Made by a program: the position numbers and the translations under genes. This document shows, one piece after another, positions 31,293 through 51,800 of a DNA stretch of 64,000 nt (positions are counted from its first letter, which is position 1; the number at the start of each line of letters is the position of its first letter). Origin of the DNA: Polychytrium aggregatum (Eukaryota > Chytridiomycota > Chytridiomycetes > Polychytriales); the NCBI RefSeq assembly GCF_025602895.1, contig NW_026516364.1:23195-87194 (forward strand), read 5' to 3'. A model generated the notes under the pieces. That model worked only from the letters and a program-made list of their open reading frames with translations. It had not been told where the DNA came from and searched no databases.

Positions 31293-34200
31293 ATGAGTTC
31301 TGGAAAGAAGCTGATCAATCTCCCTGCAAAGGTATGCGGCGGGCTGATCGCGGGAGAGCTGTTATTCCGGCTGGTCATGCTGCTTCCGCGCTCGCACAGG
31401 TCGTCGATGAGTCCCTGGCTGGGCTGGTCGCAGGAAACCCTGGTCTTGTTCTGGATGCAGAGAACAGAGGTATGTTGCCGTGTATGCAGCGATGCCTCTT
31501 GCGAGCACTCGGGCAGCGTCGGGCCCGTCAAATGGACATCTAACATGGCATGCGGCGTTGTCTGCACTCGCTCCGATGCAGTCGTTCGCCTCAAGAAGAA
31601 GCGGAACCAAGTGGCCCTCATCTCTGGTGGCGGGAGCGGACACGAGCCTGCTCATGCTGGATTCGTCGGCGACGGAGTGCTTTCGGCAGCCGTCTGTGGC
31701 GACGTCTTTGCCTCGCCGAGCGCCAAGCAAGTCCTGGCCGCAATCGAGGGCAGCAACAACGGCAGTGGGGCCCTTTTGATCGTGAAGAATTACACAGGTG
31801 AGGGCATGCAATCCCTGGGCACCTTAATGTGCTTTCCGCTGTCTTGCGCATGCCGCATGGGTCTATCCTAACAAGAGCTGCCTGGTCTGCACCGTCTCCA
31901 TCGGCGAACGCCTTCACCCCGATATACCAGGCGACCGCCTCCAGTTTGGCAAAGCCGGCGAACGGGCCAAGCAAAGGGGTATCGATGTCGAGCTTGTCGT
32001 TGTTGCAGACGACTGCGCGATCCCAAGAAGCATGCTTGGTGCAGGCCGGCGAGGTCTCAGCGGCACTCTCTTTGGTGAGCAACCGATGTTTTGATAGCCG
32101 GATGCTGTGGCATGCGATTTGGGCAGGCGAGAGTGCTCGTCCTGCGACTGACTTGCCACCGTTGCCGGGCCAGTGCACAAGATTGCTGGGGCTGCGGCCT
32201 ACACCGGGTAAGCTGATGCATGCACTCAAGCGCCCCTGACGAGAGCGACAGCGCTCCCGTGCTGCATCAGATAACGGCCGAATGAATAGCCGTTTGACTC
32301 GTTTGACTCGTTTGACTCGATATCCTCATTGACTCGTTTGATCCACCATTGGCCCCATTTGTCATCAGTCTCTCTCTCAAAGAAGTCGGGTCCGTCGCCC
32401 GAGCTGTTTCGGCCAACGTCGGCACTGTGGGCGTGGCCCTGACGCCCTGCAGCATTCCGGGCAAAAGCCCCACCTTTTCGATCCTGCCCGACAATATGGA
32501 GCTTGGACTTGGTCAGTACACCATACAGGACATGCTACTGCATCCAAGGCAGCTGCATATCATCAGCCCTGCTTTACTGGACCTTGAAGAGCTGGAGAGC
32601 GATTGGCTGAATGATCGTGAAGCGCTTCCCTCACACTTTCGGCCGCTCGAACATCACCAGGAATCCACGGCGAATCGGGCTTGCAGAGCGTGCCTCTGGC
32701 ATCGGCCAAAGAAGTTGCCCGAGCTTGTCTTGACATGGTCCTATCCCAGGACAGCAATCGACAGTATCTCCACGTTCCCGAGCAAGGACAAGTTGCCCTG
32801 CTGGTCAACAATCTCGGAGGGACAACGAACCTGGAGGTATGCAGGAATGGAACAGGCCGAGCACAGGACCTCCGCCAGCACTGCAGACCGCTCATTCTTC
32901 CTCAAATGGCTTCAGCTTGGCATCTTGGTCAACGAGGCTCTCCAATATCTGGGTAAGCCGGAATGACAGACGATATGGAATCGCTGTGGAGCACGGATCT
33001 ATCTTGTCACTGACGATGCGCGGGGCAATTCCCACAGCCTCCAAGTCCATCCGCGTTGCCAGGGTTTACAGCGGCGCTATGATGACAAGTCTGGAGATGT
33101 GCGGTGTATCGTTTTCGATCCTCAACATCCCACCAGAGCATGTAAAAACGTGGATGGAGTACCTGGACTTGCCTGTGAGCTGTTCGGGCTGGCCACGGAT
33201 CGTGTGCGATGAGCATGGTCGATTCGATCTCCAAAATCCTGTGTTGGCGAGCCATTTGGCTGTCCACGCAGCCAAGGGCGTCCCCACCAAGCCCTTCGAC
33301 CCGGTTCAGAGCATCGAAGGTATGGCTTGGCATGCACTCCAGCGTCAGTTCTTGGCGCTGTGCTCCTCCGGCAAGGCATTGGCTGCCGAGTCGCCTGACT
33401 GGTTGCGAATCATTGAACAGAATCGTTCCCACACTCTTTGCCCACAGGTGTGCTCTTTGCAAAGGCTGTAGCTGCCGCATGTCATGTCCTCATCGAAGCT
33501 GAGCCCAAGCTCACGAGCTATGACCAGATCGCAGGTGACGGAGACTGCGGCCTGAGCTTCCGCAAAGGCGCCGAAGCCATACTGGCGCAACTGCACCATT
33601 CGCAGGAGCCGCCTCAGGTTAGCTCCTCCATTCCCTTTGACCGCCCTGGTGATGCTCTGGCTCAGCTGAGCTATGTGATCGAAGACCAAATGGGTGGCAG
33701 CTCTGGCGCCCTGCTCTGGTGAGTATCGGGCAGGAATGTGCTGTCCACACGAACGCCCATCCATACAGCAGTCGATATTTCCATCGCCATGCCAATTCCT
33801 ACGTCAATTCCTACGTCAATTCGCCCACGACCGACTAACGGTTGCGTATTACTCCGTCTGCAGTATTTTCCTTGATACAGCCTCAAACTGGTTCCTCAAC
33901 TCAGCGAGCGACAACGACAGCAGCCGCCTTCTCTGGCCACGCGCAGTCAAGGTAACCAGTCGCCTCAGCACACTGGATGCTCAGATCTTCCCCGGCTCCT
34001 CCGTAACTGCCCCGCTTATTCCCTCTGCCCGATTCGGCTGTACAGGAGGGTGTCGACGCAATCCGACTCTATGGAGGTGCCTCGGTTGGTGATCGCACTT
34101 TGGTCGATGCCCTCGTTCCCCTCTCGCAGAGTTTGCTTGATACAGTCGCACACGCAAGCATTCGTGAAAGCCTCGACGAGGCCGAGGCAGCAACTGTCCG

Positions 34201-34357
34201 CGGTGCCGATAGCACTGCCGCGATGGGGGCCCGCAAAGGCCGAAGCAGCTACATCAACACCGAGCGACTCAAGGGCACGCCCGATCCTGGCGCCGAAGCC
34301 ATCAAGTTGATGGTCCAAGCCATCGTCCGCTCCTTGAAGGACAACCTCGACGACTGA
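31293..34357 (+). CDS. DAK: Dihydroxyacetone kinase (ATP-dependent, DhaK-DhaL fusion)
   Basis: The enzyme phosphorylates dihydroxyacetone with ATP, in glycerol use and in detoxifying dihydroxyacetone. At least nine exons are seen; the first three are 31293-31331, 31400-31469 and 31582-31797. The DhaK half has [56 protein letters not shown], and GIHGESG, where His should bind the substrate covalently. [15 protein letters not shown] follows. The DhaL half has the Mg-ATP-binding Asp cluster AGDGDCG, then [20 protein letters not shown] and GRSSYI. The tail is GTPDPGAEA. All key motifs are present and the stop at 34357 is clean. A Fanzor-bearing element starts only 54 bases downstream, so the gene's own 3' processing may use sequence inside that element. 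Confidence 0.94.
32298..32346. repeat. GTTTGACTC intronic tandem repeat
   Basis: Three adjacent GTTTGACTC units and a fourth nearby lie in a DAK intron. Confidence 0.7.
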
Positions 34358-34411
34358 GCGGACGGCCGATCACTCAGTGGAGCTACCACAGCAGAGGACA
34401 TGTACACTTTA

Positions 34412-34430
34412 TTCAGAAAAAAACGGGACA
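34412..34430 (+). repeat. Left terminal inverted repeat of the Fanzor element
   Basis: TTCAGAAAAAAACGGGACA, flanked outside by TA. The outer bases plus flank make TGAATAAA on the minus strand, a potential polyadenylation signal for transcripts leaving the Fanzor. Confidence 0.8.
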
Positions 34431-34504
34431 ATATAGCCGTTTCCATGAACATGTAGTATGTGCTGTGCTTGCGTCAAGCAAAGCCACAAGAAATAAACAG
34501 ATCA
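34412..34504 (-). ncRNA. Predicted Fanzor guide-RNA scaffold (fRNA/omega-RNA region)
   Basis: In TnpB and Fanzor loci the guide RNA comes from the 3' end of the nuclease gene and the bases up to the element end, and the guide is the flanking DNA just beyond. Here that region runs from the Fanzor stop (34502-34504) to the left inverted repeat. It has a 6-bp hairpin, TGCTTG-ACG-CAAGCA, at 34480-34466, and the block CTACATGTTC at 34456-34447. Both the block and the end repeat recur at the right window edge with nearly the same spacing. The scaffold may extend into the Fanzor coding end. Transcription is inferred from family knowledge, not seen. Confidence 0.55.
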
Positions 34505-36874
34505 CTTTGGCAGCCTCCGAGTGAAGACCTCACGTCGCTCTCCGGTCTCCACAATCGACCTGCATACTGTGATCATGTTGCGCGCCGCATTGACGTCGCG
34601 ATTCCACACTGTCCGGCAGCTGGGATTCTTGCAGCTCCTGACAAAGTGGGAATTCGCAACACTGGGCGCATCGAGTCCTTCCAACCGAACTGGCTCCAGG
34701 CACTTGGAGCACACTTGCGAGGTGTTGAACTCGTTCGTCGAGACTACCTTGACGCTTCCATGATGGTGATTGGGACGGCGTCGGTGGTGCTCGAACTGCT
34801 CAAAGTACTGAGCAAACCGCTGCCTCCGAGGGCTGGATGCATAGCCCTTGCCTTGACGCCATGACGCATTGCCAAAGGCGATCACCACATCGGTCCGTAT
34901 CGGGGCGTGCTTCAGGACAGCCTTGCACATCCTGTCGACGGCCACTTGGCGCCTCTTGTGGCCCGTGAAGCGATGGTGACGGGCCTTCTTGCCAAGGTGG
35001 AAGTCGAGCTGCACTCGAAGTTCCGGTCGCAGGACATGGGTGAGATGGACCTTGAAGGCCTCCGAGGACGACACCTTGGGCGAGGGAGTGGTCGACATCC
35101 AGGTCTCGATGCTGAGTCGATACTTCATGGTGTTGTGCCACTTGGTGTTGGACGTATGGCCACACATGTGCTGGTAGTGGCCATTCGAGAATGAGACCAC
35201 CTCGTCTTGGTGGCCCGGTGCTTGGATGACCGCCGTGAAGATGGAGCCGACTCCAGGATCGATGCCAATCCAAGTGGTGCGGTTGGGGTCTGGGTCGCCG
35301 ATGTGGGCCTGGATGCGCTGCTCGGCAGTCGGAGGAGGCTCGGAGGTCTCGGTGCGATCGGTTCGACGCACAAACTTGACGAGACCGATGGTGCATCCAA
35401 TACCATCGGTGCTGATCTCGTAGTTGAACAGCTTCTTGTCCCTGACCCGCTCTTGGAAGAGGGAACTACGCAGCTTGAAGCAACTGCGCCAGAGACGATC
35501 CTGGTTGTTGATGCCGTCATCACCTTCTTCCTTGAGCTTGTCCCGGGTGAGTCCAAGGCGCTTCTTTGGACCCAGGAGATTCCAAAGAGTGACCGTGTCA
35601 ATCTTGACATACTTGGCCTTGGCTGTGCACAGAGGAACTATCGTGCACACGGCCGGAGGAGTGTCGACGGCGAGCTGCTTGAGTGCCCAGTTGATCCTGG
35701 ATGCCAGCTTGTTGATCTTGGCCTTGGTGGTGCCGAGCTCCGACTTGGCCTTGGTGAACCTCTTGTCGTCGGAGGGAATGCCTTGGGCAGTGAGCTTATC
35801 CAGCTTGGCCTGGCGCTGCAGCTCGGTGACTCGGAGGGCGGGCATGTCACAGTCGATCCACTTGTGGACATTGTCGACCATCTTGTCCCGGGCAAGGATC
35901 CCCACATGGTGTGAGAGGCGATGGAGGGCCCGGAAGCGGTCCTGGTCGCTGCTGTACCGAAACTCGTCCAGGACGTGGCCAAACTCGGGATAGAGGAACT
36001 CGAGATCGGCCTTGGGTGGTGTCTGCCCTGGTTTCTCGAAGAGCTCAAGACAGGCCTCGATGGCTTCGTGCTTGTGCTTGTTGGCTGGGAAGACGGCAGC
36101 GCAGAAGCGGCGAAGGAGTCGCCAGTAGGCCAGGTCGAGGTGGGTGGTGCAGTTGGTGGCATAGGCATTGACAGTCAGTGTGAGAAGCTGACTGTGAGCA
36201 CCATCAGGCAGACGAGGGGCCGGAGGCAGGTCTGCGTGCCGAGTGGTCTGGTAGTCGCGAAAGGAAGCGACCAGATGCTCGTTGTATTTCTCATTGTCCC
36301 CGGTCGGCGAGAGGGCACCGTCCTGGACGATCTTGAAGCATTGACGGATGAAAGCAGGGGTGGACTTGGAGATGACGGGGACGGGAAGATCCTGCTCGAT
36401 GCACCGGAGGATGTGCAGGTTGAGCAGCCTGGATGCCTCGAACTGGATCTGGGTCATGGCCTCGACGGTGGCCTGGATCTTGTCGCGGAGAGCGGGATTG
36501 AGACAACAGCCATCCATCGTCTGCTTGAAGCAGCTGAACTGAGGGGCGGATGACCTTCCATCCACGAGTGGGACGACAGAACTCTTGAGGGGCCGGTATT
36601 TGGGACATTTGCTGGTGTTGCAACGTTCGTGATCGGTGCCATCGCACTGGCGACATCGCTTGCCAGTACTCGAGGAAGTAGATGGACCAGGCTCGGTGGG
36701 ATCGACATCCATTGGATCTGCAGAAGCAGTGGTGGTGAGCGACGGAGCAACAGACGACCAAGCATGCGTGGGATCAGAATACGAACCAGAGACAGGCTCC
36801 GACTGTGACTTGGCTTTCTTGGGCCTGGGTGGCCGAGGCTGGCCATCACCGGCACCCTTACGCTTCGGAGGCAT
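34502..36874 (-). CDS. Fanzor: eukaryotic TnpB-like RNA-guided DNA endonuclease
   Basis: Fanzors are eukaryotic relatives of TnpB that use an element-encoded RNA to cut DNA. This intronless frame gives 790 residues from the ATG at 36874. Residues 2-23 are a nuclear-localisation-like segment (PPKRK, RPKKAK). Residues 74-90 hold a Cys/His cluster (CRQCDGTDHERCNTSKC). The middle is helical. RuvC-I is WIGIDPGVGS with Asp539. At the usual RuvC-II position (DVVIAFGNAS, 662-671) the Glu is absent. A Glu instead lies at 715 in STNEFNTSQVCSKC, the rearranged site known for Fanzors and IS607-type TnpBs. The zinc finger is C722-x2-C725 and C748-x4-C753, and RuvC-III is RDVNAARN with Asp760. The size is like Fanzor1. 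All expected catalytic residues are present and the frame is unbroken, so activity is plausible. Neighbour: a dead transposase upstream in the same element. Confidence 0.93.
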   Translation of the reverse strand: MPPKRKGAGDGQPRPPRPKKAKSQSEPVSGSYSDPTHAWSSVAPSLTTTASADPMDVDPTEPGPSTSSSTGKRCRQCDGTDHERCNTSKCPKYRPLKSSVVPLVDGRSSAPQFSCFKQTMDGCCLNPALRDKIQATVEAMTQIQFEASRLLNLHILRCIEQDLPVPVISKSTPAFIRQCFKIVQDGALSPTGDNEKYNEHLVASFRDYQTTRHADLPPAPRLPDGAHSQLLTLTVNAYATNCTTHLDLAYWRLLRRFCAAVFPANKHKHEAIEACLELFEKPGQTPPKADLEFLYPEFGHVLDEFRYSSDQDRFRALHRLSHHVGILARDKMVDNVHKWIDCDMPALRVTELQRQAKLDKLTAQGIPSDDKRFTKAKSELGTTKAKINKLASRINWALKQLAVDTPPAVCTIVPLCTAKAKYVKIDTVTLWNLLGPKKRLGLTRDKLKEEGDDGINNQDRLWRSCFKLRSSLFQERVRDKKLFNYEISTDGIGCTIGLVKFVRRTDRTETSEPPPTAEQRIQAHIGDPDPNRTTWIGIDPGVGSIFTAVIQAPGHQDEVVSFSNGHYQHMCGHTSNTKWHNTMKYRLSIETWMSTTPSPKVSSSEAFKVHLTHVLRPELRVQLDFHLGKKARHHRFTGHKRRQVAVDRMCKAVLKHAPIRTDVVIAFGNASWRQGKGYASSPRRQRFAQYFEQFEHHRRRPNHHHGSVKVVSTNEFNTSQVCSKCLEPVRLEGLDAPSVANSHFVRSCKNPSCRTVWNRDVNAARNMITVCRSIVETGERREVFTRRLPK

Positions 36875-37167
36875 GGGGACAGAGGATGCTGGATGCCTGC
36901 CAGTGGTACTGGTCAGAGCAGAGACTTTTTTTATCGTACAATGGCGCGAATGATCAGATCAAGGCGAGATGAGGGACGAAAGCAGCAGGACGAAGGTGTG
37001 GCATTTATACCCGAGAGCAGGAGCCCGTCTGCGCGGGCTGGTTGGGGAAGTGACCCTGTTCAAAAATCGCCGAGAGGTTCAAGCCAGGGATGTGAACGTG
37101 AAAATGGCGGCGTGATTGGGGAGCTCAACCCCAAATTGGAGGAACTCAACCCCAAATCGGTGGGGAC
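36875..37167 (-). promoter_or_regulatory. Fanzor 5' region with three CTCAACCCCAAA repeats
   Basis: This is the likely promoter/leader of the Fanzor gene. CTCAACCCCAAA occurs at 37124, 37145 and 37167, at 21-22 bp spacing. The third copy overlaps the last codons of the transposase remnant (FFGVES), and the first two look like duplications of it. In the transposase frame the repeats soon lead to a stop. Confidence 0.5.
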
Positions 37168-37178
37168 TCAACCCCAAA
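37124..37178. repeat. 21-22 bp tandem repeat containing CTCAACCCCAAA
   Basis: Three copies of CTCAACCCCAAA, with similar GG-rich linkers between them. Confidence 0.85.
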
Positions 37179-37818
37179 GAAGTTCTCGATGGGATTGAAG
37201 TCGGGTGAAGCAGGTGGGGTGAAGATCACTGACCATCCTCGGCGCTCGATGCAGCACACCAGAGTGGTTGATGGCAAATGCAGCCGAGACAGACTTGTGT
37301 TTCATGTGATTGCGCTGACGGAGTGGGACGCCCTTCGGTGAGTATCCGTAGAGAGGAAAAATGGATCTCCTGATCCCTGTCTCATCGACAAAAACGAATC
37401 GTCGTGGGTCGATGGAGCGGGCCTGGTCCCTGAACTGTGCCACTCGCTCATCCAGTCGCTTGGACTTGTAGAGGTGTGTTGCCCTCTTGTGTGAGAGACC
37501 TGCTCGGTGGATGGCAGTGTGGCAGAGTGAGAGTGATACTTTCCTCTGGAGGATGGACTCGAGCTTGCACCGCAACACAGGACCAGTCTGGAACGGGTCC
37601 TGTTCAATCAGGGTGCGAATGACTGGACATGCCTGCTCGAAGAAAGTGGATCTGCGAGCTGGGACCCGGGATGGGTCATCCAGCTTGCATCCTCGGTGCC
37701 ATCGATGGATGGTGCTCTTGGATACACTGAATATGGAGGCGACCTTACGCAGGCTATGGATGAGATCGTAGCATCGCAATGCGGCGGTGCGAAAGTCGGA
37801 TGTGTGGCGAATGGTCAT
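37165..37818 (-). pseudogene. Decayed IS630/Tc1-mariner DDE transposase
   Basis: The 5' part is open from the ATG at 37818. Residues 22-43 form a helix-turn-helix (LRKVASIFSVSKSTIHRWHRG), and FVFVDETGIRRS has the first catalytic Asp (D145), followed by the family motif YGYSPKG. The C-terminal catalytic motif SPDFNPIEN is present but in another frame, with its Glu at 37185-37187. Only ~66 codons separate the first Asp from this Glu, where ~115-125 would be normal. The second Asp and its surroundings are therefore deleted and the frame is shifted. The product also ends soon after FFGVES. It cannot encode an active transposase, so this copy must rely on another copy to move. Confidence 0.85.
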
Positions 37819-37876
37819 GGGCAGCGCGCGATAACATTGGGTAACAAAATATTCGATGAATGGTCAAAAACCCGGG

Positions 37877-37895
37877 TGTCCCGTTTTTTATTGGA
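37877..37895 (-). repeat. Right terminal inverted repeat of the Fanzor element
   Basis: Read inward on the minus strand it is TCCAATAAAAAACGGGACA. It differs from the left end at three of 19 positions and shares the last 13 bases exactly. Confidence 0.75.
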
Positions 37896-38129
37896 TCGCC
37901 TGTAAACAGTCGGTTACCAGTGCGCTGTCGGCAGTGGCTTGAGTCCCAATGCCAGGTACTAGATCAGCCCCAGTACCCACCTAGTTCCTTGCCCATGTCA
38001 ACTGCGACTGAACAACTGCGACGCAGAATCGCATCTACAGTTCCAAAAAGCTTCATTTCATAGAAGTGCGAGGGTCGACAGGCGTGAGAGTCGCGGCACC
38101 GGCCGCGAGACGCCTCTTTGGTCGGCCGC

Positions 38130-39360
38130 CTAGAATGGCGAGGGATCGCCAGCGGGGAACCAGCGAGTATCGCAGCTGATCCGCCAGCGGTCTGTGGTGT
38201 TGGTGGAGGTCATATGCAGCACATCCAGACCGATGATGCAGACATCGCCTGGCTGGTAGTCCGCACCCAGCCACTGGACCGTGTCCTGCGGCAGTCCAGT
38301 CTTGCCCTCGATTTCGTTTGGATCGGATGCTATCCATCCCGATGCCGTTCCATCCTTTCCGACCGAGGATGCGCCGTAGTTGGTCCTGAGCGGGTGGAAC
38401 TGTGGCGACGAGTTGGAGCCGGGAACGACCATGAGTGAGCCCATCTCGATCGCGATGGCACCCAATGGGATCCAGGCGGTCAGAAGCCGCGGGGAGCGGG
38501 AGGATAGATACACTCGATCCAGATGTGGGCCGGTGAAGAGATCGGGTCCGACAGCCCGGAGCCACTTGAACGGAAGCGTTTTGATGCCCCAGCGAGGCTC
38601 GGTGGAGATATCTGCACTCGGTCCGCAAGGTGCTCGGCAACTACCGTTGTCTTCGCCATCACCGTCGGCATCGTCATCGTCGTCACGCTCTCCACCACCG
38701 TTATCATCATCATCGTCGTCACACTCCTCATCGGCATCGTCATCGCTATCGCTATCGTTGACATTGTCACTGCCTGGACTTGCGTCCCGTTGTGCTGCTC
38801 GATTGTCTTCAAAGGGCTCTTGCTCCGACACCAGGTCCAGTCGCCTCCTGAAGCGCATCCCAGTTCGTAAAAGTTAGCTCCACGATAGATCGGGCAGCCC
38901 AGAGACCAGAGACCAGCGCCAAAGCAGTGCGACTGACTCACCTCTTTGGATCGGGGTAGATCTGCTCCGGCCCTTCCCTTTCCGACCGAGCGACACTATC
39001 CCATGCCAAATACAGCCCCTGGAAGAGCCAGTAGAGCCTAGGGTCCTCAAATAAATCGAGCAGGGGCTCTTGGTGAGCAAGCTCCTGTCGCTCCAAGAGC
39101 CCCGGCCGCAGCATGTCAGAGCGATAGCGATCCATGTCGATGGCGGCCTCGTCCTTTGGCGCTCCAGGCTTCAAGAATCCGCTCTGGTCGAGGTGGTCAG
39201 TGATCCGGGCTCTGGCTGCTGCGACCTTGGTGGGTGAGAGGAGCCCCCGTAGGAGCAGATATCCCTGGTCGCTCAGGATGTCGAAGAGCCGATGGAAGCC
39301 CGCTGACTGCTGGGCGGTGTCGCTGTGCCGATCAGGGAGCCACATGCTCGAGTCTTGCAT
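38130..39360 (-). CDS. Phytanoyl-CoA dioxygenase (PhyH)-family Fe(II)/2-oxoglutarate oxygenase
   Basis: PhyH-family enzymes hydroxylate small molecules or lipids with Fe(II) and 2-oxoglutarate. Exon 1 ends at 38942 with donor GTGAGT and contains FDILSDQGYLLLRGLLSP and MDRYRSDMLRPGLLERQEL. The second exon carries LPFKWLRAVG, then GPHLDRVY, which gives the iron-binding His-x-Asp. LLTAWIPLGAI and GSLMVVPGS follow. Near the end, LHMTSTN gives the distal His and RWRISCDTRW the Arg for 2-oxoglutarate. All metal ligands are present. An Asp-rich stretch of about 35 residues near 38640-38775 interrupts the domain; it may be an expanded insert or a missed intron. The start is 39360 or an earlier in-frame Met near 39442. 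The substrate is unknown. Confidence 0.83.
38640..38775. repeat. GAC/GAT trinucleotide-rich tract
   Basis: A run of TCATCG/TCGTCA words on the plus strand encodes poly-Asp/Glu in the PhyH gene frame. Confidence 0.75.
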
Positions 39361-39681
39361 CGGCCCGACGACGACATGGCCGGTCCCGGCTTTGATGCTG
39401 CGGGGAAACAGCCCCGGGGTGAGAGCCGGCCCAGTTGGCATGGGTCGCAGAGGGGTACTGGGATCGCAGATGGGGCCAAGTGCCGGGCAGATGCCAGATG
39501 GGTTCCAGATGGGTTCCAGATGGATGCCAGACGGCCGATCGCCCAAGATTGCGGGCGCAAAAAACCGCAAATGCGGCCGCGCCCTTCTGGTTCTTTTGCG
39601 CCTCATCAACCCGCCATCGATCGGCTCCTCCCCTCGAACGGCCGCAGAGCAACTCCAAGCACAAGCACACATTGTCCGAAC

Positions 39682-40423
39682 ATGGCCGACCAGAACCCAC
39701 GCCCGAACAGGCTGATCCCGGAGCGAGAGGAGATCCGCCAGGAGCTGGCCCTGGCCACCCATGTGTCCACGTTCTATGCGACCATGGCCGGTGCTGCAAG
39801 TAAGTCCATATCTGCCTCGCCCTGTGTCTGCACCACCCTGCAAAGACATCAGTCCCTGCTGCAACGATGCCACCGTTGCCAATATCGATATCGCTGTCGC
39901 TGCCGTTGTCGCTGCATCGGGTCGTCAGAAGAGGAGGCGAGGCACATCCGGACGGCCGGCTGCAGAGTTGTGTCTGCTGCGAGACCCTGACTTGGTTGCT
40001 TGCTCCCACCCTCCCAGCACTGGCGCTCTGCTTCTCGGTCTACAAGGCGTATCCGCAGCTTCATCGCTTCCCGTCATGGCTCTTCGTTTCCGGTAAGCGG
40101 CCGGCATGGCTCTGTCGAGGCTCTCGCACTGCGACCGCCAGCATGTCCGTGGCCGCCCCTTGTTGTTGGGGGGGAGCCAGTCGCAAATTCTTCTCACCCG
40201 CTCCTCCCGGCATCTCGCTCCTCAAACCATGTTCCCACAACCACCACCACCCTCCTCCTTCGCATCTGCGACTGGAACATTCTACACTCCTGGATTCGGC
40301 GGGCACTTTCCAGCACCCGCTGTTTTTGTTGCCGGACAGGTCTACGTCATCAACAACACAAAGTTGCGAGAGGAGATCATGGAACCTATTCGCTACAAAG
40401 CCCAGTTCGGATCGCGATCGTGA
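39682..40423 (+). CDS. Small two-pass membrane protein, OCIA-domain-like
   Basis: Three short exons join in phase: 39682-39799 (donor GTAAGT), 40018-40092 (donor GTAAGC) and 40314-40423, giving 100 residues. The N terminus is polar (EREEIRQELALATHV). Two hydrophobic segments follow (FYATMAGATLALCFSV and WLFVSAPAVFVAGQVYVI) around a short loop KAYPQLHRFP, and the end is charged. The order of helix, 'P-x-hr-fP' loop, second helix with Gly and charged tail is like OCIA-domain proteins of mitochondria and endosomes. The match is to shape and spacing, not a strong signature. It is divergent from the PhyH gene. Confidence 0.5.
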
Positions 40424-41076
40424 AGCGAGCCTGCCTGGCTCCCAAGCCGTGGGATCGGCGGGTGCCTCTCGGCATCAGCATCGGCGGCGGAGCTATCGAC
40501 TCGGGCTGCGCTATCTCTGGCCAGAGCTGTCTTGCGTGCACACGAGCGCCTCGCGCAGGTGTTTGGCAATATACAGCCTTCCTGAATACACACCCGCCCA
40601 TCACCCGTAATGACAGAGCGGCGTGCTCAGAGTGCCTGGAAGCCAAGCGACTCGAGAAGGCCGAGTATCTTGATGTCGAGAAACCATGGGGCTGTTCAAA
40701 GGGTCGAATGCATGGACCACGCTCCCACATCGAGACACCAACACCAGTCGATCGTCGCCACAGGAGATCAACCGAGAGTTCACGACGATTGCCAATAAAG
40801 ACTGGGGTACAATCCCGTTGCCCACCAGGGCCTAAAGATGACTGAAGGATGGCCAGGGTTGCACTATCCTGTTTCGTTTTGAACAAGCTGTAGATTGCGC
40901 TGGAACGACCACGCCCCCGCGGACATTCCTGCATCCAGCCTACGTTGTTTTTTGACATCGTACAGTTATTCTTGTTTGGGATGGGGGGGGTGCAAGTGCG
41001 AGGGTGCATTGGGCCTCTGCCTCAAACCGTCGCTGTGTTTTTGGGGCCAGCATCCGCCCCTCCCCTCAACCATCTT
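40424..41076. other. Convergent intergenic region, OCIA-like gene / Sec2-like gene
   Basis: No gene is supported. It holds G-runs (GGGGGGG near 40985) and a T-rich 3' flank. Confidence 0.5.
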
Positions 41077-43733
41077 CTAGTTTAGGATCTGGATCATCTT
41101 CTCCCAATCCGGGTTCGTTGCCGGGTCGACCTCAAACATGGCGCCGCTGCCGATGCGGGTGCTGGCCATGCGTCGCCGCAGATAGAGTACATGGCGATAG
41201 ATTCCGAGCAACGATGCACCCTGTTTGCCCGGACCGATGGCGCCTTGCCGCAGGTGGTTGATGTAGGTGAAAAAGTCGGTGACGGCAATGACTCGCTCGC
41301 GGCAAAACCGGCACAGCGACATCCACTCGATTGTGGCTGCTGAGGAAGAAGGTCCTCCGGTCGGACTGGCCCCGACCTCGCTCGAGAACCTCATGCGGTA
41401 CTCGCAGTCGCGCACCACGGTGCAGATCGTGCATCGGATCTTGGGGGGCGGGCCGGCTGCAAAGACGGTCGAGATGCGCCGGTCTTGGTCGAGCCTTTCG
41501 ATCGGATCGGCGGCTGGCAGGCTCTCGGTGGAGGAATAGAAGGGCGTGAACAGCAGCGACCCTCGCATGGTGCCGTCGAGCAGCTTGCGCTTGAAGGCGC
41601 TGCTCATACCCGCCCCGGGCTTGAAGAAGAGCGTCAAGTTCATGCCAGCAAACTGAGGGTGCTGGTAGTTGTAGAAGAGACAGGGCTCGATGTCCTCGAC
41701 CATGCATCGGCGCATAAACAGAGTACTCTGGGTGGTTGCCTGGGCCTGCGACGGAGGCAGGCTCGAGGCCAAGGCGGTCTGCTTGATGTGGTCCTGGAAC
41801 TCTATAAAGATATAGCCGTCGACGGGGAGCTGTCCGTATGCCATGCGATAGATTTTGCTTCCAGAAAGCTGGTCGAGATTGGCGACGGACGTCCCTGGCG
41901 ACAGCGCCGTGATGCTCGCCGAGCGAGCCTTGGCTGCTTGCAGCGCTCGCAGCGACCGCTGGAGGTCCTTGAGTTCCTCGCCGCGGGTCTCGAAGCGACG
42001 GATCCAGTCCTTGAGCTCGCACCGAAGCTCCTTGTTGGCATTCTCGAGATTGTCTCGCATGCGGGCCTCGTCGATGACCATTTTGTTGGCTTGGTCAAAG
42101 AGCTGGGCCGTGAGCTCCTCGAGTTCCTGGTCCAGGATGTCCTTGGAGAGCTGGATCCGCTCGCGCATCAGCCGCTCTTCTTCGATCTGGTTGGCAAGTG
42201 TGGTGATGTCCCGCTTGAGGTACTCGACAGTGTCGACATAGTGCTCGTTTTGCAGCCGCAGCTCGCGGCAGTGCGGACAACCGATAGCGGTCCGCGAGGG
42301 GCTGGTGGTCGCCCGGGCCGCGTTGCTGTTCTGGCCGCTCGAGAGGTCGCTGTCGTCTTCCTCGGGAAGGACGGTGGCAGCCTTCAAGAGGAATGGATTC
42401 AGCGAAGCAGCACTTTTCGGTCGGGCCATGCTCCGGTTGGCAGCGCCGGTGGTGGTGGTGGTGGTGGTGGCTCGTTCTGGGATTGGCGATGGGTGCAGCG
42501 ACTTTTTCCCGTCTTCGGCGTCGATCACCAGACTTCCCTTTGACGGACTGGTGCTCATGCCTGGATGCTGTGTCGTGGTGATGCTCGCAGTGTCGCTACC
42601 TTTTCCGGGCCCGGACGACATCCCAAAGCCAGGAGTTGTAGTCGGCATCGGGGCTGGTGCATTGGTGGGGATGCTGCCGCTGATCGAGACAAGCGAGCCG
42701 GCTGCGTCTGTGGCAGCAGCGGCACTGCTTGCATTCGCTATCGGCTTTGATGGATCGGAGTTGAGAGCCTGGTAGATGTGGAAGAGAGGGACGTCGTCGC
42801 TCGGGCTGGGCGTAGCCGGTGATTTGGTTGGCGACAGGCGGGGCAGGACAACATCAGCGCCATCCTTCTGCCCCTCTCGAATCGCCATGACCGACTGCTG
42901 GGCCAGCTTGAGATAGTTCAGTGCCAGTCGCAGGGACTCGAGCCCGCGAATCTCGATTGCTCCCGCAGCAGATTGTGGTGACTTGTTTGCAGCGGCAGCC
43001 GCAGTGGTCGTGGCAGTGGAAGCTGCAGCCAGAGTCTTGTCCTTGCCAAAGAAGGCGGTGTCCAGGAGCTGCGAGATGCTGCCGGACTTGCTCTTGGACA
43101 TCTCCAAGGTGTCTTGCCGAGCAGGAGCAAATCCCAACAGCCCGGCTTGGCTGCCGCTTGCGAGCCACTGATCGTACGCCTCCGCGGGCTTGGACAGAAA
43201 CAGAATGGCCTCCTTGATGGCAAACTCGTATCGGTTGAGCTGGACGCGCATGATGTCGATTTGCGAGTTTTTCTTGACAATGATCTCGGACGACTCCTTC
43301 GCGAGCTCCTCATACTTGTCGCCGATGTTCTGATATCCCCGGTTGTGTGGCAGACACGGACGTTAAGCGTGGGAAAGTATAGCGACAAGGGAGCGAAGGG
43401 GGCGGACGGGCGAGTTAGTGCTTCCGAGGTGGATGTCAAAGAGCTTGGTCTGATTAGGTGCCCATTGCTTGAGTTGGACCAGATCGAGCGAGCGTAGCCT
43501 ACCTTGAGCTTGCTCTCGGCCGAGGCCGTTGTCGAGGTGAGCTGGATATTGAGAGTCTCGAGCTCCACGATCCTTGCGGACAACCGAGCGATTTGCTCTG
43601 CCGTCTCGGACGCCGTATCGCAGGTTATGATGCTTGGTGGTCGTGCGGGGCTATCGTCTCTGCCTGCCACCGTTTCTGCAACAGGCGCGGTCGTCGGGGG
43701 GAAAGTACCCTTGGAAGGCGATTGAGTCGTCAT
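41077..43733 (-). CDS. SEC2: Sec2/Rabin8-type Rab guanine-nucleotide exchange factor
   Basis: Sec2 and Rabin8 activate Sec4/Rab8 on secretory vesicles; Rabin8 also acts in ciliogenesis. Exons 43503-43733 and 41077-43329 join in phase to 827 residues. A short coiled coil lies at the start (QIARLSARIVELETLNIQL). From about residue 418 comes CPHCRELRLQ, then a long coiled coil with EELTAQLFDQANKMVIDEAR, the signature of the Sec2p exchange domain. The C-terminal third has CTICTVVRDCEYRMRF and LCRFCRERVIAVTDFFTYI, matching the cysteine-bearing C-terminal region of Rabin8-type proteins, and then HVLYLRRRMASTRIGSG. A disordered Ser/Thr-rich segment with TTTTTTTG separates the parts. The protein is longer than yeast Sec2. 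Membership is clear; the Rab partner is inferred. Confidence 0.86.
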
Positions 43734-45056
43734 TGCAGAGTAGCCGTCGCTTAAAATCTCGGCGAAGCCACAGAGCCAGCGTGAGCGGAGGAGTGGGAAG
43801 TGAGTGGCCCCCCACCGTCTTGGTGTATGCTGCAGGGAACGCTTGGGACTCTGGGCGGGATGCGACAGAGGCTCGTGCTGAAGCAAGCGGGTGCTCCTCA
43901 GCCGAGAACGCTCGCAGTGTCCTGGGTACTTGTGAATGGAAGGACTTGACACAAAATGCCGCGTGCGGTCTAAGAGTCGACAGGGTGCGGTGGATTGAGT
44001 GGCGAGTCGAGCGATGGAGCGGGAATGGAGCTCACACACGTTTGGATATTAAGGCTGACGTTGCCGGTTGCGGGACAGCAGCACGATACCAAACCTGGTG
44101 GATCCGACGGCGTGGTATATCGAGCTTGGGCCGGCGAGCGTGGTTGCGGCAATATCCCGCTGGCTGTCAGCGGGTTGGTCAGCGGCAGAGACGGCCCTCC
44201 CGAAACGACAAATTACGGGTGGTGATGACGAATCCCGACGACAGAGAGTAACGCTGGCGGTGGCGATCGATGGAGGAAAGGCACGAGTACCAACGCCGAT
44301 GCACGAAATGGAAAGGGTGCGTGCGGGGGTTCGGTTTCAAGTCTGAGCAATGGCTGTGAGCTGGCCAGGCCGATGCAGACGGACTCGATGGAGGAGCAAG
44401 ATGGATGATAGTGGCCACATTGGAACGGGACACCTCAACGCACAGATGGTTTGTGTGGATTGCACGACGCTGATCGGCCGCCTGGCTGAATGACGTCGAT
44501 CGGCGTTCGCACTGTGATGGCTTCTGCTGATGAGGCACAGCGATTCCGCTCTTTGCTTCCGCCTTCATCCCAGGCATGTCCTCTTGCCCTCAGTCGGGGC
44601 GACTGCATCTGCAGCGACTCGCTCATCCTCGCCGTGCGCTGTGATCCGACTACGGCGTGTTCTGTCCGAGAGGAGTTATGTGCCCCATGGTCTTATCAAC
44701 ACACTGTAGGACGTTTGCACGTATATATTAACGATATGGGATGAATGCAAATGGGGGGGTCGGATTCTTGGGCGTGGGAACGGGGGCATATTCAGTTGCC
44801 CCGAGGGCTGGGATGAGGGTCGTGATCGCCAGGGTGCTGGGCTGTTGCCCAAAATCCACCCCCCCTGTGAGATGATATGCTCGGCTCATTGAGCACGGGC
44901 GAACGAGCCGGCGCAAGCTGGCAGTGGCGGGCGGGGTGGACGAGAACATGGTGAGAGAAGTGGCAGATGGCCAAAACGGTTCGATGGTTTGTGCTGAGTT
45001 GATGTCGTTGGCAAAGGCAATGGTCCCACGGCGATTCCATGGCATGGTCACGGCGT
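43734..45056. other. Intergenic region without a supported gene
   Basis: About 1.3 kb upstream of the Sec2-like gene and downstream of the PY-motif protein gene. Frames are short on both strands. I see no domains, tRNA boxes or repeats of note. Confidence 0.45.
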
Positions 45057-45899
45057 CTACTGAGACCCGCTTGGTCCCAGCGAATCATAGGACGGAGGAA
45101 GGGACTTTGGCGTGCCCGGAGTTGATGGCTCTCTGGGCTCGGCTGTTGTTGGCTGGCGGCCCAGGGACGATCGTCCTGTCGGGGACCGCTGGGCCAAGCT
45201 CGGGAAGAGCGATCTGACAGAGGGCTGCCTCATGACGTTGCCCATGGGGGGTGAGTATGCTGGCAGCGGCTCTTCTAGGGTCGAAATGTTGTCCAGGCCG
45301 TCCTCCGATACCCGCTCGGCAGTGCCGAGGGAGAGCGACGACGTCGATCCCCACATGAATCGGTAGAGCGGGTGATGGCGATCGACGACCACGGACCGAA
45401 CGACAAACACCGTCGTGGTCACAACGACCGCGAATCCAGCAACACCAAGGACCATGACCATCAGGACGCGGAAGGGGTTCCACAAGTCATTCGGGCCCGA
45501 GCCTGATGAGTCCTGGTTGATGACCTTGGGCTTGACGATGGCCGGCGGGGCGGTCTCGACTGTCGCCGGCGTGGCGCTTGTGGGAGGCGGGCTGGGCGAC
45601 GGGCTTGAGGCATGGCGGCCGGATATGGCAGCCGACGGTGACGGCGATGGTTGTGCCGATGATGCCTGTGATGGTGCTGCTGATGGCGATGACGATGCAA
45701 CAAAGGACTCGGTAGCCAGGATCTCGGGGGAGACGTCTGTTGGCAGCACAGAGTCGTCAAAGTTGGTCTGGGCTCGCCTGTGCTTGGGCCGGGCGGAGGC
45801 GAATGCACGGGCGGCCGGCATGCCCTCGAGGGGGATGCTCCAGGCCAGGACCAGCAACAGCAGCAGCCAGAGCCGACGGTGGTGGCGGGGCAGTGACAT
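45057..45899 (-). CDS. Single-pass secretory-pathway membrane protein with PY motifs
   Basis: Uninterrupted 280-residue frame from the ATG at 45899. A signal peptide is clear (LWLLLLLVLAW, residues 10-20, after a basic start). A Ser/Pro/Ala-rich lumenal or extracellular part runs to about 140, likely O-glycosylated. One membrane helix spans 144-168. The cytosolic tail has LPAY at 212-215 and LPPSY at 267-271, the L/PPxY type of site bound by WW domains of Rsp5/Nedd4 ubiquitin ligases. Type I topology with tail PY motifs is typical of Rsp5 adaptors that drive ubiquitination and vacuolar sorting. No family is recognised, so the adaptor role is inference. Confidence 0.72.
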   Translation of the reverse strand: MSLPRHHRRLWLLLLLVLAWSIPLEGMPAARAFASARPKHRRAQTNFDDSVLPTDVSPEILATESFVASSSPSAAPSQASSAQPSPSPSAAISGRHASSPSPSPPPTSATPATVETAPPAIVKPKVINQDSSGSGPNDLWNPFRVLMVMVLGVAGFAVVVTTTVFVVRSVVVDRHHPLYRFMWGSTSSLSLGTAERVSEDGLDNISTLEEPLPAYSPPMGNVMRQPSVRSLFPSLAQRSPTGRSSLGRQPTTAEPREPSTPGTPKSLPPSYDSLGPSGSQ

Positions 45900-47450
45900 G
45901 AAGCGGCAGCAGTGCGTGGGAGATGTGTGGTGGTCCTCGAAGGACGCAGACGCCGAAGGAGCCTCGACGAAGAGTCAGATCCCGGAGAGGGGGGAATGGG
46001 TTTTTGGAAAAGGAATATGAACGAAAGCTGCGACGACGAGGCCGGGGGCCGTGGCCAGGTGGAGAACACCCAGTGCAGTGGTGCCCCCAGCGGAGGATGA
46101 GCCGCAGACGGACACTGTCTGGACGGCGCTGGGCTTGTCCCGCCTTCTCCGCCCAAGGCGCTCAGGCGCTGGTGCAAGCGGATCGGCGCCGGAGGCCTTG
46201 GTAGAGCACATCGCCAGCACAAATGCCATGCTCGGCGAGCATTCAGCCGAGGGACCACGATCAGGTTCGGGACAAACAAACCAGGGACAGGAGGGACTGG
46301 CGTGGCATCTGCTGGTCGGGGGGGGGAGGAAGTGTCTGTTCGGCCGTGGGCAGATCTGCGTTTGCGAGATACATTGCGGGCTGGAATGGAATCAAAGGGA
46401 ATGGCATGCCGCGGCAAACCAAAGCGCCGGGCAAACATGGCAGCGGCCCGATGGCAGCTTGGGCGCGGGCTCGGAAGCGACGGCCTGCCTGCCCGACTGC
46501 CTGGCTGTGTTGGATGTTGTTCGATATCTGCTGTTGAATGTCTGCCACTGAATGTCTGCCATTCCGATGTTGAATCTCGGACTGCCCGGCACCGCAAGAC
46601 CGGTCGGTCAATCGGTGAGTCACCCGCTCGATCGTTCGTTCATCGATCGTCCCTGTCCTGCCAGGACCACATCCATCGGTCGTCATCCACCGGGGGGGGG
46701 TTCGCCGATACCGTCGCGCATGACTCATGTTCGCTCGCCATGTCTGTTGGTCCGTCCTGTCTGTAGAGGCGATTGGCGCTGGGAACATTCATTGGGCAAT
46801 CAGCTGGCTCAGGGATTTCCTCCCAACCATCGATCCGACGGGTCCAACAACCCAGCCCCAACGGGCGATGAGCCACCATCCATCCAAACCAAGTCGACGA
46901 TCTCGCCGGCGCTGCTCCTCGGTTCGGCTAAAGTTGCTGTCCCAAAGTCCGCCACGCGGCATCGACCAAGCTCGGACCCCAATATGCCGTGGATGGTCTC
47001 CCGTGTGAGAGGAGCTGCTGCCGCTCGGGTCAGAGCGCCGGTCGGCACTCTTACTGCAGCTTCTTCAGGCCCACTGCGTGAGAAGCAACAAAAACGCATC
47101 AGTCAGCAGAGATCCCTCCGAGGCGAGACGCATCGCAGGGGCCCTTTTGTTCGGGCGACCATGCACTGCTCGTCGCTGCTCCTTCCGAGCACAACAAACC
47201 CCGCTGCATTCATTCGGAGCCGTGCTTCTCGCATGCCGGCTTCCGGCTTGCCATCAACCCCCTCACGCATATCCAGCGGTGAGATCATGCACAATCATCC
47301 CAATACGCCATCGGCGGCATCGGCGTCGGCATCTGACTCCGAAATAACGCTACCGCACAACACCGCCTCCACGCTGTACATGGCCTTCGCCGTAGCGGGT
47401 GGCCATGTTCGTTCGCCTCCACACCGCTTGGATCCTCAGCAGCCACTTAC
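45900..47450. other. Intergenic region without a supported gene
   Basis: About 1.5 kb between the PY-motif gene start and the THI20 3' end. The longest open frame (plus strand from about 46552) is a Ser/Pro/Arg-rich reading that runs antisense into THI20 exons and has no domains. The final small exon of THI20 may lie at about 47295-47430. Confidence 0.45.
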
Positions 47451-49957
47451 TCTCCCAAAAGTTTGCCTCGAGGATGGTGGCTTGCTTGTAGTTCTCGCAG
47501 AGCTGAATAAGGCGGTTGGTGTTGTGGGACGGAACCATTTCGTAGGCCAGGCGCTCGAGTTTTTCTGCAAGGCAGCCGCATGTCAACGGGGGGGACCATC
47601 GCACCGCACAGACGGGTCATGGAATCAGTATCCTCGGAGTAAAGATTGGCTTGCATGGCGTCGGTGCGGGTGACAACGGAATGCAGCGCAATACAACGAA
47701 ACACAATGCGCCGAAATACAGTGCAGTGCGATGCAGTACCTTTCATGTCGACAGCGATCTTTTGGAACTCGGGGCAGCCGTAGTTGACGATCCACTTCCA
47801 GTAGGGGTTACCCTCTGCACACCAGGAAACCATTTGCATACACCAGTGAGTCAGCCCGCTTCGCACAACCAATTGAGTCAACGACGACATCCAGCAGGCG
47901 GCTGCATCCACGCCGTGCGAGAAACACACCATTCCCGCTCGGCGAACCAGCCACTCACCTTGCTTGGTCTTGGGGTCAGTCATAAGACGATAGCCGATCT
48001 CGGCATAGCCCAGGCAGCACGGCGCAACGGCCACAAGCAGATCGAGGCGGTCGCCACTAGTGCCTAAGTGATCACGAAACGTCCGGAAGGGTCCAGGTCA
48101 GACCGTGGCAAATCCATAGTCCACCATGGCGTATCCAGTGTTGGCCAGCCGACGCTGTCTGTTCGTGCAGCTGATCATGTCTGGACCCAGTCCGCTCGTG
48201 CAGCATCGCTGCACTCACCCTTGTCGAGCACATAGCGGGTATAGGCAAGATTGGCAGAAGCCTCCTTCGTCTTGATAAGCTGATCGCGAGTAATGCCGTA
48301 CTGCTCTCCATACTGAATGTTGGAGTGTCAAGTCGATCAGTGACACTGGCCAGTCGCTGCTCTGTTGGCCGCCAGCTGCAGCCCCTCTGCGTCATCTGCA
48401 CAAGCATTACCTCGATATGGAGCTTCTTGGTCTCGTGTCCGATGCCAATGACAAACTCGGCAGCCTCCATGATCGAATCCATGTCGTTCTCCTTGAATGC
48501 CGCCAGTGCGTTCACACGCGCATAGTGGAGCAAGAAGATATAGTCCTGGCAGATGTAGTGGGTGAAGGAGTCCATGGGCAGGGTACCGTCGCCCATCTGC
48601 TGCACAAACGGGTGGTTGACGTAGAGATCCCATTTCGGAGCGCAGTAGTTCATGAGCTTGTGCACGAAGCCGCCGATTCTGCAATGAAACCATAAAAAAA
48701 GGTCGATCCGCGACTGTGGTTAGACCAACTGAAGCACTTGGCGAGGACTGGTGCGGACTCGAGAATCTGTTGGGGGGGGGACCGTCGGACTTACTTGGCT
48801 GGCGATGGCAGCGCATGGACATGGTTGAGTGGACCATGGCCCTTGCCGACCGAGATGGAGCAGACCAGCGCGCCCTGGACGTACCGGAGGGCATCCTGCA
48901 CGGCCTGCTTCACTGTGCGGCGGGAGGGAGGAAGTTAACGAAGCAAAATGAGCCCATGCAGAGGCGATCGATCGGGGGTGAGGTGTTGCATCGAGTGGGT
49001 GCATCGAGTGTGTGTATCGAGTGTGTGCATCGAGTGGGTGCATCGGGCTATATAGTCGAGAATGCCCTCCCCCGCTTCTGGAGAGCCCATACCCACCATC
49101 TTGCCCGATTGCCAGGCCGGCGGTGATCGCAGCAGAGAGGGTGCAGCCAGTGCCGTGGGTGTTCTTGGTATTGACAAAGGGATGCTTGAAATACTCAAAG
49201 CTGCTACCGTCGTAGAGGAGATCGAGGACCATGGCCGAGTCGAGCGACTGGGCGGTTTTGTACTGTCCGTCGAGAGGCAGGTGGCCACCCTTGACGAGGA
49301 CGTGCTTGGCGCCGAGCTGGTGGATCTTGACGGCAGCGGTCTTCATGTCCTCGAGGCTGGTGATGGAGATGCCTGCCAGGATCTCTGCCTCGGGAACGTT
49401 CGGGGTGACGACAAAGGCGAGCGGGAGAAGCACCGACTGGATCGATTCGATGGCATCCTCGGCGAGCAGGCGGTCGCCGCTGGTGGCGACCATGACGGGG
49501 TCGACGACGACCTTGGTGAGGCCGTACTCTGAAACCAGCTTGGCGACGCACTTGACGACAGAGGAGTCAAAGAGCATACCTGAAAGAACACGAGGTCCAT
49601 CGGGGTCAGGAGAGAGAAGCCACGCGAGAGACGGTTTGGTCTGCGGCGGCGATATCCCAGCGATGGAGAGCAGATCCACCACCGTCGTCGGTGCGGTAAC
49701 TTGCCGGTTTTGAGGGCATCGGCGCCAATGTCATCGAGGACAGCGCGGGCTTGCTTCTCGACAAAGTCGGGCTGGATCGGATGAATGCCCGAGACACCGA
49801 GGGTGTTTTGGGCAGTCAGGGCGGTGAGGACCGAGGTGCCGTAGACCTTGAAGGCCGTGAAGGTCTTGAGATCGGCCTGGATGCCGGCGCCGCCGCCCGA
49901 ATCGGATCCAGCGATGGTCAGAGCGCGGCCGAGGAGCTTATCGTTGAGGAGACTCAT
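47451..49957 (-). CDS. THI20: THI20-type fusion: HMP/HMP-P kinase plus TENA/THI-4 domain
   Basis: The kinase half phosphorylates hydroxymethylpyrimidine and its phosphate for thiamine synthesis; the TENA half hydrolyses aminopyrimidines in thiamine salvage. Exon 1 (49705-49957) has [20 protein letters not shown] and [10 protein letters not shown]. Exon 2 starts at 49579 (MLFDSSVVK) and has [27 protein letters not shown] and [20 protein letters not shown], where GTGC holds the catalytic Cys. A linking exon carries [17 protein letters not shown] exons follow: [69 protein letters not shown] and ILEANFWE. The first intron uses a GC donor (GCAAGT). A GTAAGT just after FWE at 47450 suggests one more short 3' exon, which I could not place with confidence. 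Confidence 0.92.
48984..49047. repeat. Intronic GCATCGAGTGKGT tandem repeat
   Basis: About five 10-14 bp units of GCATCGAGTGKGT lie in the intron after the kinase exon of THI20. Confidence 0.75.
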
Positions 49958-51800
49958 GGAGGGTGGCGGGAAGGGGACGGTCACTGTGGGGCGGGAGACA
50001 GCAGACTGTCGATCGGGCGGATCTGATCTTGTCGGGGGCGATCAAAGACAGAGGGGAAGCGGGTCCGGGCGGAGCGCGGACTTTTTTGAGGCAAGAGCGC
50101 CATGATGCTGGGGCTGGGATGATTGTGGATGTGGGCGCGGATGGGCCGAAGGACGACGGAGAGCACCCCTCTGGCCCCGGAGCGCTTGGCTCTGCATCTG
50201 CGGCCTGCGCTGGGCAAGGCTGGACCTGGTGCTCATGCCGCTGGTGTTGTCATGGTGCACATGCTGGAGTCGACTGGGCTGGACGAGCCACCGGAAGCTG
50301 GGTCGGTGCGCAGCCCGATCGTCTTTCCCTTCGCCTCTCTTTCCCCGCGATCGTCTTTCTGCCCGCGCTCCTTTCCCCTCGTGCGACCGGGACCCTGCGC
50401 GGTTCCGGCGGTGGTGCAGCTGCGCGTGGGGTCTCCGGAAATACCCGACGCCGCCACGTGCTGGCGCGCAGCACGCCTTGCTGGTTCCGCCGCCTGTGTC
50501 TCAGCCGAGCGCCACGCGTCAGGGCAGCGCGGAACCCGGAGGACGGTCCTTGGCAGGGCGGCCTTGTGAGATGCCCTTGCTGCGTCCACTGTGTCTGCTG
50601 TGTCTGACGCTTGCTGACGCTGCTGTTGCCGCAGCGCCTTGTCCGCCGAGCCTGCACAAGCTTGTGCATCGCTCTGTTCCGGCAGGTGTTTTTGCCTGCG
50701 ATGGCCGCATCGGAACGGAAGCGGTCGCAGAGCGAGTCCAGCACCGCTCCGGGGACCTGCAGCCACCAGAGCCCGCTCGTCCGCCATCGTGCTGTTGGCC
50801 GAGGGAGACCGGGCATGTCTGTCCCTCCCCCCCCCCGCCGGCAGCGATTGCGTCGCTGGCCACGCAGAGATGGGGGGAAAGCATCGTGCCTCGGCGCGAG
50901 GACGGACAACGACCGGAACGGTCACGGGCCGCCTGCTTATCGGGTGCGTTATCTGCCAATCCGAGCGCGGCGCCGGGCTCACACGGCCTCAGCGATCCGA
51001 CGAGGATATCTCTCGCGGCTCCCATTGGATGCACAAACGCGCTGTGTGCGAGCGGATTTGCGCAGCGCGTTGCGGACTTGGCCGAGTGCTGCCGCCCCGC
51101 AGTCCGTGTCGACTGTGAGTGCGTGTCTTGCTCTCCAGGCCAATCGGCGACGAGACGCTGCCCCCGCTCTCGCTCGCCATGCTCTCGCCGCCGTCTCGCT
51201 GCCGCCTCGCCTGGTGTCACCCGGCCCTTCGCTGTTTCTCGCGCCGTGCTTGCTCGGTTGTACATTTCGCCCGGCAATTTGCTATCGCTGTCGCCGCCTC
51301 CATAAAATCTTCTGTCGCCCCTCGGACCCGCAAGTCTGTCTGCAGACCAAGCTCGCAGACGCTCTCCCTGGCTGGCCCTGACTCGCTGGACGCACCTCGC
51401 TGGTCTCGATCGAGTGAGTCTCCGATGCCTCCTCGCTGTGTGCCCTGCGCCTGCTCTCCCGCCGCTTGTTTGGATGTCTTGTCGACAGCGCCGGGACCGG
51501 ACCAAGCAGCGCCATTGCGGTTCCAGCGGCGCCCACTCGGTCCCCAGGACTTGTCTTTTCTCTCCGGCCTGGGTTGTGTGGTGTCCTGCGAGTTGCCGCC
51601 CAACCTTTTCCTCTGGTCACCGCCTCCAGCGGGGCCGAGTCCCAGCCCTGTCCGACCCCTCGGGTTTCCCGCAATCGCCCTTTCCCTCGGCTTCTCACGC
51701 CTATCTCTGCCGTTCTCCCCCACCACATTTAACTCCATCAGAAGTGGCCCGATCCGCTCGTGCTCTTCCTGCATCCGCATCCTTCCCTTCGTCCTCTGCA
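49958..51800. other. Long divergent intergenic region, THI20 / protein kinase
   Basis: About 1.8 kb between two divergent starts. Open frames on both strands are Arg/Ala/Pro/Ser-rich and overlap, as expected of GC-rich non-coding DNA. Long pyrimidine tracts (51600-51800) precede the kinase start and may be its leader. No thiamine (TPP) riboswitch core was noticed near THI20, but I could not fold it. Confidence 0.45.

Follow-up and report, generated by a model that had tools for sequence, protein, structure and literature searches.

What Fanzors, which are TnpB-like RNA-guided nucleases, do for the transposons that carry them is the question raised by an element in a 64,000-nt stretch of the Polychytrium aggregatum genome (hereafter the window). 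The element occupies positions 34405-37902 and holds, on the minus strand, an open reading frame (ORF) of 790 amino acids (aa) at 34502-36874 that reads as a Fanzor, alongside the remnant of an IS630-family transposase. Its family brings together a transposase and a Fanzor in one element, more than 200 ends, derivatives reduced to the ends and the presumed omega-RNA, sites that were assembled twice, and a target-adjacent motif (TAM) predicted from the insertion sites alone, features that make a role of the Fanzor in retaining insertion sites directly testable. The explanation that we favour, with confidence evenly balanced between its being right and wrong, is that this is a high-copy IS630/Tc1-mariner-type element whose Fanzor would retain the element at its sites by means of a TTA motif, and whose copies would exchange sequence by conversion.

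The claim of the original prediction that the 790-aa protein is a Fanzor was borne out. Profile searches gave a match to Pfam PF07282 (Cas12f1-like_TNB) of 38.1 bits, above the cut-off of 26.3, and a weak one to the NCBIfam profile guided_TnpB, which at 27.4 bits fell below its 100-bit cut-off. The published Fanzor motif, D-X(125,275)-[TS][TS]XX-C4-X(5,50)-RD (Bao and Jurka, 2013; PMC3627910), was present with the published spacings (D539; T718 and S719; C722, C725, C748 and C753; R759 and D760), and E715 sits before the zinc finger. For SpuFz1, Saito et al. named the residues E541, D383, N385 and D606 (PMC10432273), in keeping with the order seen in the 790-aa ORF of Asp (D539), Glu towards the end (E715) and final Asp (D760). 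Two results weigh against the identification: the sequence match to the solved SpuFz1 chain 8gkh was weak (E 0.42), and an AlphaFold2 model, made from an input of 15 near-identical copies to look for a RuvC fold, was unusable, with a mean pLDDT (predicted local distance difference test) of 33.9. Weak PDB matches, and the fact that the profiles recognise the C-terminal TNB domain only, could be taken to mean that the protein is no Fanzor and its element an ordinary mariner-type transposon; however, the motif at its published spacings, the TnpB profile matches (the second of them below cut-off) and a transposon context that agrees with PMC3627910 make this very improbable. Judged by its sequence, the protein is a Fanzor and the element is real, and by its context the Fanzor would be of the Fanzor1 type. 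A search for viral relatives with six peptide patterns matched none.

The limits of the element were determined by searching the genome (64.7 Mb in 418 contigs), which gave 84 matching pieces (among the best 40 of 1243 candidates), and aligning the 30 best-scoring copies, denoted here by L numbers. Copies with both ends were found as predicted, but the alignment put both ends 7 bp further out than the proposed 34412 and 37895, with a TA immediately outside each (34403-34404 and 37903-37904). The left boundary reads TA/CACTTTATTCAG and the right one GCCTG/TA or close variants; outside them the flanks of the copies mostly differ. The left TA, on the guide side, was present in 29/30 copies, with unrelated sequence outside it (L010 has CA), and the right TA, on the predicted TAM side, in 30/30. 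The terminal inverted repeats (TIRs), defined from the sequence and the copies, are 26 bp long (34405-34430 on the plus strand and 37877-37902 on the minus strand) and imperfect, matching at 19 of 26 positions by eye, with the inner 13 bp identical; the predicted 19-bp repeats (16/19 matching) are, again by eye, positions 8-26 of these and do not form the ends. The copies have a TA target-site duplication at both ends and TIRs in common, as do IS630/Tc1-mariner elements, and the sharing of both ends by dispersed copies upheld the proposal that the Fanzor and an IS630/Tc1-mariner-type transposase belong to one element. Most pairs of flanks had no common stretch beyond chance length. L009 and L011 have 8-bp direct repeats near both ends at irregular offsets, which were rare in shuffled pairings (0.04 per 30 in one test, none in another (25 bp)). 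A direct repeat at L015 was considered as a long duplication and rejected, as it lies in a tandem array. L010 and L015, which are at different sites, both carry ATACAAGACAC directly past the right TA, and L010 is the copy with CA at its left end.

The element had been described as intact, which holds for its Fanzor ORF and fails for its transposase. The transposase remnant (37149-37818, minus strand) is separated from the Fanzor by a spacer (36875-37148, minus strand) in which a TATAAA-like box, possibly part of a promoter, precedes the Fanzor ATG. The remnant contains a 216-aa ORF (37168-37818) that matched DDE_3 at only 18.9 bits, below the cut-off of 28.6. This is because a segment of 134 bp, lying between 8-bp direct repeats, has been lost relative to L007 and most other copies, so that the second catalytic Asp is gone and the frame is shifted; L001-L006 (6/30 copies) likewise lack the segment. 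To judge from these lesions the DDE ORF of the window copy is not a working transposase, and this copy would be mobile only by means of transposase from other copies. Other copies do carry undeleted versions of the gene. The 268-aa transposase of L014 scored 118.1 bits against the NCBIfam IS630 profile (cut-off 100) and 75 against DDE_3 (cut-off 28.6) and is of the DD34E type, the spacing being counted by eye, and a longer class of 310 aa occurs in L063 alongside a 790-aa Fanzor ORF. Genome-wide, at least 107 matches to the IS630 profile exceeded the cut-off (the best 107 of 359 candidates, all above it), many of them within open frames of 325 codons. Among the 30 fetched copies, the Fanzor ORF is 790 aa long and begins with MPPKRKG in 22, the transposase ORF has its three motifs in 14, and 10 copies combine the two; D, E and D stood at the three motif positions in 21/22 of the full Fanzor ORFs, the remaining one having E in place of D760.

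The left end had 246 matches in the genome at up to 3 mismatches, whereas the reversed pattern, used as a control in the same genome, had 0, so the family does not arise by chance; the exact right end had 220 matches. A protein search found 56 places, the window copy included, with an essentially whole Fanzor at 94-100% identity (best 57 of 1264), 8 of which hold one stop codon; these are the best-scoring places and so overstate intactness. In 35 copies, diversity at third codon positions of the Fanzor was 0.068, compared with 0.031 and 0.025 at the other two, and in the transposase 0.056 compared with 0.023 and 0.018, the transposase values being read in the frame of the window copy, whose deletion puts the final ~85 bases out of register. 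Many Fanzor copies have thus kept open frames and show constraint at the codon level. Mutation resembling repeat-induced point mutation was rejected as the source of the variation, since at intermediate-frequency sites transversions made up 59/192 and CpG contexts 46/192. Deletion copies that retain both ends also occur: L066 is 309 bp long, and in L031 and L060 the first 215 bp remain, a part that includes the presumed omega-RNA region. Several copies of ~310 bp with both ends were seen among the matches listed, and L031 and L060 both stop at element base 215, as though one deletion form had multiplied.

In a Fanzor system the guide lies at the 3' side of the omega-RNA and the TAM opposite. 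The region presumed to give the omega-RNA (34405-34680, minus strand) comprises the 3' end of the Fanzor ORF and the non-coding left end, and the guide would be the flank to the left of the element. The assignment is suggested by low diversity, 0.021 in the non-coding left end compared with 0.052 in the spacer (35 copies), and by low third-position variation (0.017-0.032; 49 copies) over the final 180 nt of the ORF. Counting against it, positions 35705-35880 were equally poor in third-position variation (0.010-0.025), so that the low stretch is not specific to the ORF end; second positions in the last 60 nt of the ORF were not poor (0.070); and the predicted omega-RNA fold was no better than shuffled sequences (z -0.66). 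At L024, L026 and L046 a related element ends directly at the left end of the copy, the two sharing one TA, and the guide would there be the neighbour's end. In L053 and L058 the left end appears to be preceded directly by a right end that is truncated and belongs to this family or a relative of it.

By the guide and TAM rule, the TAM side of the element is the right one, on the 5' side of the Fanzor, and it is on this side that the insertion sites proved to be nearly uniform. The base past the right TA was A at 28/28 unique sites (position 37905 in the window), and 210 of the exact right ends in the genome read TAA against 10 with another base after TA, counts in which deletion copies and twice-assembled sites are included. 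No such rule applied on the guide side, where T preceded the left TA in 5/54, and in the flanks as background TA was followed by A in 77/655. Nested insertions allowed the A to be followed in uninterrupted sequence. L002 (compared with L055 and L026) and L004 (compared with L055) have uninterrupted relatives 73-78% identical, and in these three comparisons the joined flanks, with one TA kept, aligned without gaps within ~5 bp of the junction, where the relatives have A. Each of the two has inserted into a related Fanzor element, in its 3' portion. That the A is part of the element was rejected on the grounds of the 10/220 exceptions (a rate close, however, to the divergence within the family itself), of T or G at related ends, and of the A in the uninterrupted relatives; the nearly fixed A therefore seems to belong to the target. 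At similar right ends, which were taken as the Fanzor 5' side by similarity only, the base was A in 10, T in 5 and G in 2 (17 distinct non-tandem ends of 28 matches). A pattern with A at 2/34 was discarded as a TAM-side control because a piece of Fanzor in L055 reads toward it, making it the guide-side end of a related family. With TA-A on the TAM side and the guide side free, the predicted TAM is 5'-TTA. Two points argue against this reading of the asymmetry: the uninterrupted relatives of the L002 and L004 sites themselves lack the TA, and a transposase that treats its two ends differently could likewise yield TA-A.

Sites present twice in the assembly gave a second view of retention. The left flank of the window copy recurs on contig C190, and this second site likewise holds the element (L007). 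Of 10 further sites tested with joined flanks, 6 had second copies, all occupied, and a test of 24 sites by their left flanks found 16 second copies, 8 shown to be occupied by fetched DNA and 8 judged to be so from their coordinates. With L019/L023, found via their common flanks, this makes 24/24 sites occupied in both copies, and an empty copy of the same locus was not found among the 24 second copies. For 12 tested sites a second copy was not found (4 with joined flanks and 8 with left flanks, the latter among the best 40 of 644 candidates). We infer that the double sites are haplotypes because their flanks are 99.3-100% identical; a search with 37905-57000 as a haplotype control returned mainly short repeats (best 38 of 736 candidates).

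Bacterial TnpB restores its element at the donor site. By the explanation favoured here, the Fanzor rides in an IS630/Tc1-mariner-type cut-and-paste element of high copy number. The nuclease would pair with omega-RNA from the 3' end of its gene and the left TIR, with the left flank as guide, and would recognise the TAM 5'-TTA on the other side, so that cleavage would be confined to its own site in the empty state. With an occupied chromatid or homologue as repair template the element would be put back, and insertions at sites lacking TTA would seldom persist, which would account for the near-fixation of A. The suggestion of the original prediction, that the Fanzor could restore or copy the element where it sits, is consistent with both the TA-A asymmetry and the 24/24 occupancy. 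Transposition that ended before the haplotypes split would, however, give double occupancy without a Fanzor, and it is a real possibility, though short of an even chance, that the Fanzor is a passenger with no effect on spread, TA-A being a product of the transposase or target capture and the burst predating the two haplotypes. The similar right ends, which prefer A and have not fixed it, fit such a history, as does the absence, L019/L023 excepted, of close pairs of copies (minimum difference 2.9%, 588 pairs), so that recent jumps are not evident. On the other hand, a TA-targeting transposase is not known to insert in one fixed orientation to its target, the side under constraint is the one expected to carry a TAM and not the guide side, and the Fanzor has kept its codon constraint.

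Comparison of elements at the same site suggested that they are only loosely tied to their flanks. In 7/8 same-site pairs the aligned elements differed by 3.1-4.6%, whereas the flanks differed by 0-0.7%; one of these seven pairs a 309-bp deletion copy with a full copy. The 588 other pairs of copies differed by 4.1% on average. Of the seven same-site pairs of full copies, four were well inside the random range (21st to 86th percentile), L001/L007 (mutual nearest neighbours) and L008/L061 lay at its lower edge, and L019/L023 fell far below it, with a clustered difference of 0.44%; some kinship of same-site copies thus remains. A structural change of at least 100 bp separated 5/8 of the pairs. 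Variants were near linkage equilibrium beyond ~40 bp, both in 28 full copies and in 49 left parts (overlapping sets). More than 40 bp apart, 79-91% of site pairs showed all four gametes; with rarer variants admitted, the share at 41-120 bp was 66-84%. In biological terms ectopic gene conversion would be the simplest cause, and it fits best; acting among the copies, it would leave each element only loosely tied to its flanks. It would act separately from retention by the Fanzor: exchange between copies is not predicted by simple homing from the homologue, which should make same-site copies alike, and the finding that they are mostly unlike counts against that part of the scheme.

The differences and the missing linkage might instead be artefacts of assembly or polishing in a repeat-rich, partly uncollapsed assembly. 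The differences are known from the assembly alone, the elements are ~96% identical and 3.6 kb long, and linkage is lost over an unusually short range, which makes artefact a serious alternative; moreover, a comparison repeat family of at least 150 bp in at least four stretches, which could have served as a control, was not found in 175 kb of flank and window sequence. Nevertheless, several features count against artefact, and we consider it somewhat unlikely. L019 and L023 are 99.56% identical with their differences clustered, L014 and L063 are identical over a run of 578 bp (random pairs reached at most 499), same-site pairs fall in different structural classes (for example 309 bp and 3633 bp), linkage decays smoothly, where a k-mer graph should leave a sharp step, and a majority-vote consensus would not give the smooth spread of minor-allele counts that was seen. 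A further reading would link retention and exchange. The Fanzor would set persistence, at TA-A only, and drive the element onto both haplotypes, and breaks made by Fanzor and transposase would feed ectopic repair, giving one freely recombining pool of variants, common to some two hundred dispersed copies, in which elements are overwritten and flanks stay fixed. We regard this as doubtful, and well short of probable.

The element type itself is already known, so it is the asymmetric target and the exchange that are worth following. Fanzor1 genes with a mariner transposase and TA duplications were described in 2013 by Bao and Jurka (PMC3627910). Their PGv-1, PUl-1 and PUl-4 resemble the present element in combining Fanzor1 with a mariner-type transposase, or in having a Fanzor alone with matching TIRs, and in being flanked by TA; unlike them, the present family has more than 200 ends in one genome, several deletion classes, a near-fixed A on one side, exchange between copies and, in the window, a broken transposase. 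SPu-1, which carries SpuFz1 in Spizellomyces punctatus, is likewise a TIR element with a single-ORF Fanzor and putative TA duplications (PMC3627910). The TAM of SpuFz1, 5'-CATA, ends in TA as does the 5'-TTA predicted here, and its ghost loci, which hold omega-RNA only, resemble the ~310-bp copies (PMC10432273). For SPu-1, 17 full-length copies are reported, and Saito et al. found no transposase within its repeats, whereas the present family combines transposase and Fanzor in one element; their report also gives TTAAN as the TAM of GtFz1. Fanzors and their transposases have been discussed by Yoon et al. (2023), and the TAMs of three Fanzor1s were reported by Xu et al. (2024). In the literature searched, represented by partial texts, we found no report of the TA-A rule, of this family or of linkage equilibrium among Fanzor copies. 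The bacterial TnpB systems of IS200/IS605 and IS607 also couple an RNA-guided nuclease with a transposase and have the motif and TNB domain in common with the Fanzor, but their transposase chemistry is different.

The element lies 45 bp beyond the stop codon of an apparent dihydroxyacetone kinase gene (33438-34357; DAK2 domain at 33438-33722), and on its other side, at 38130-38858, is a gene with a PhyH domain on the opposite strand. Elsewhere in the window, 40620-40779 and 56787-57000 belong to a short repeat dispersed over dozens of places, where neighbouring pieces are often inverted relative to each other, as in a foldback element.

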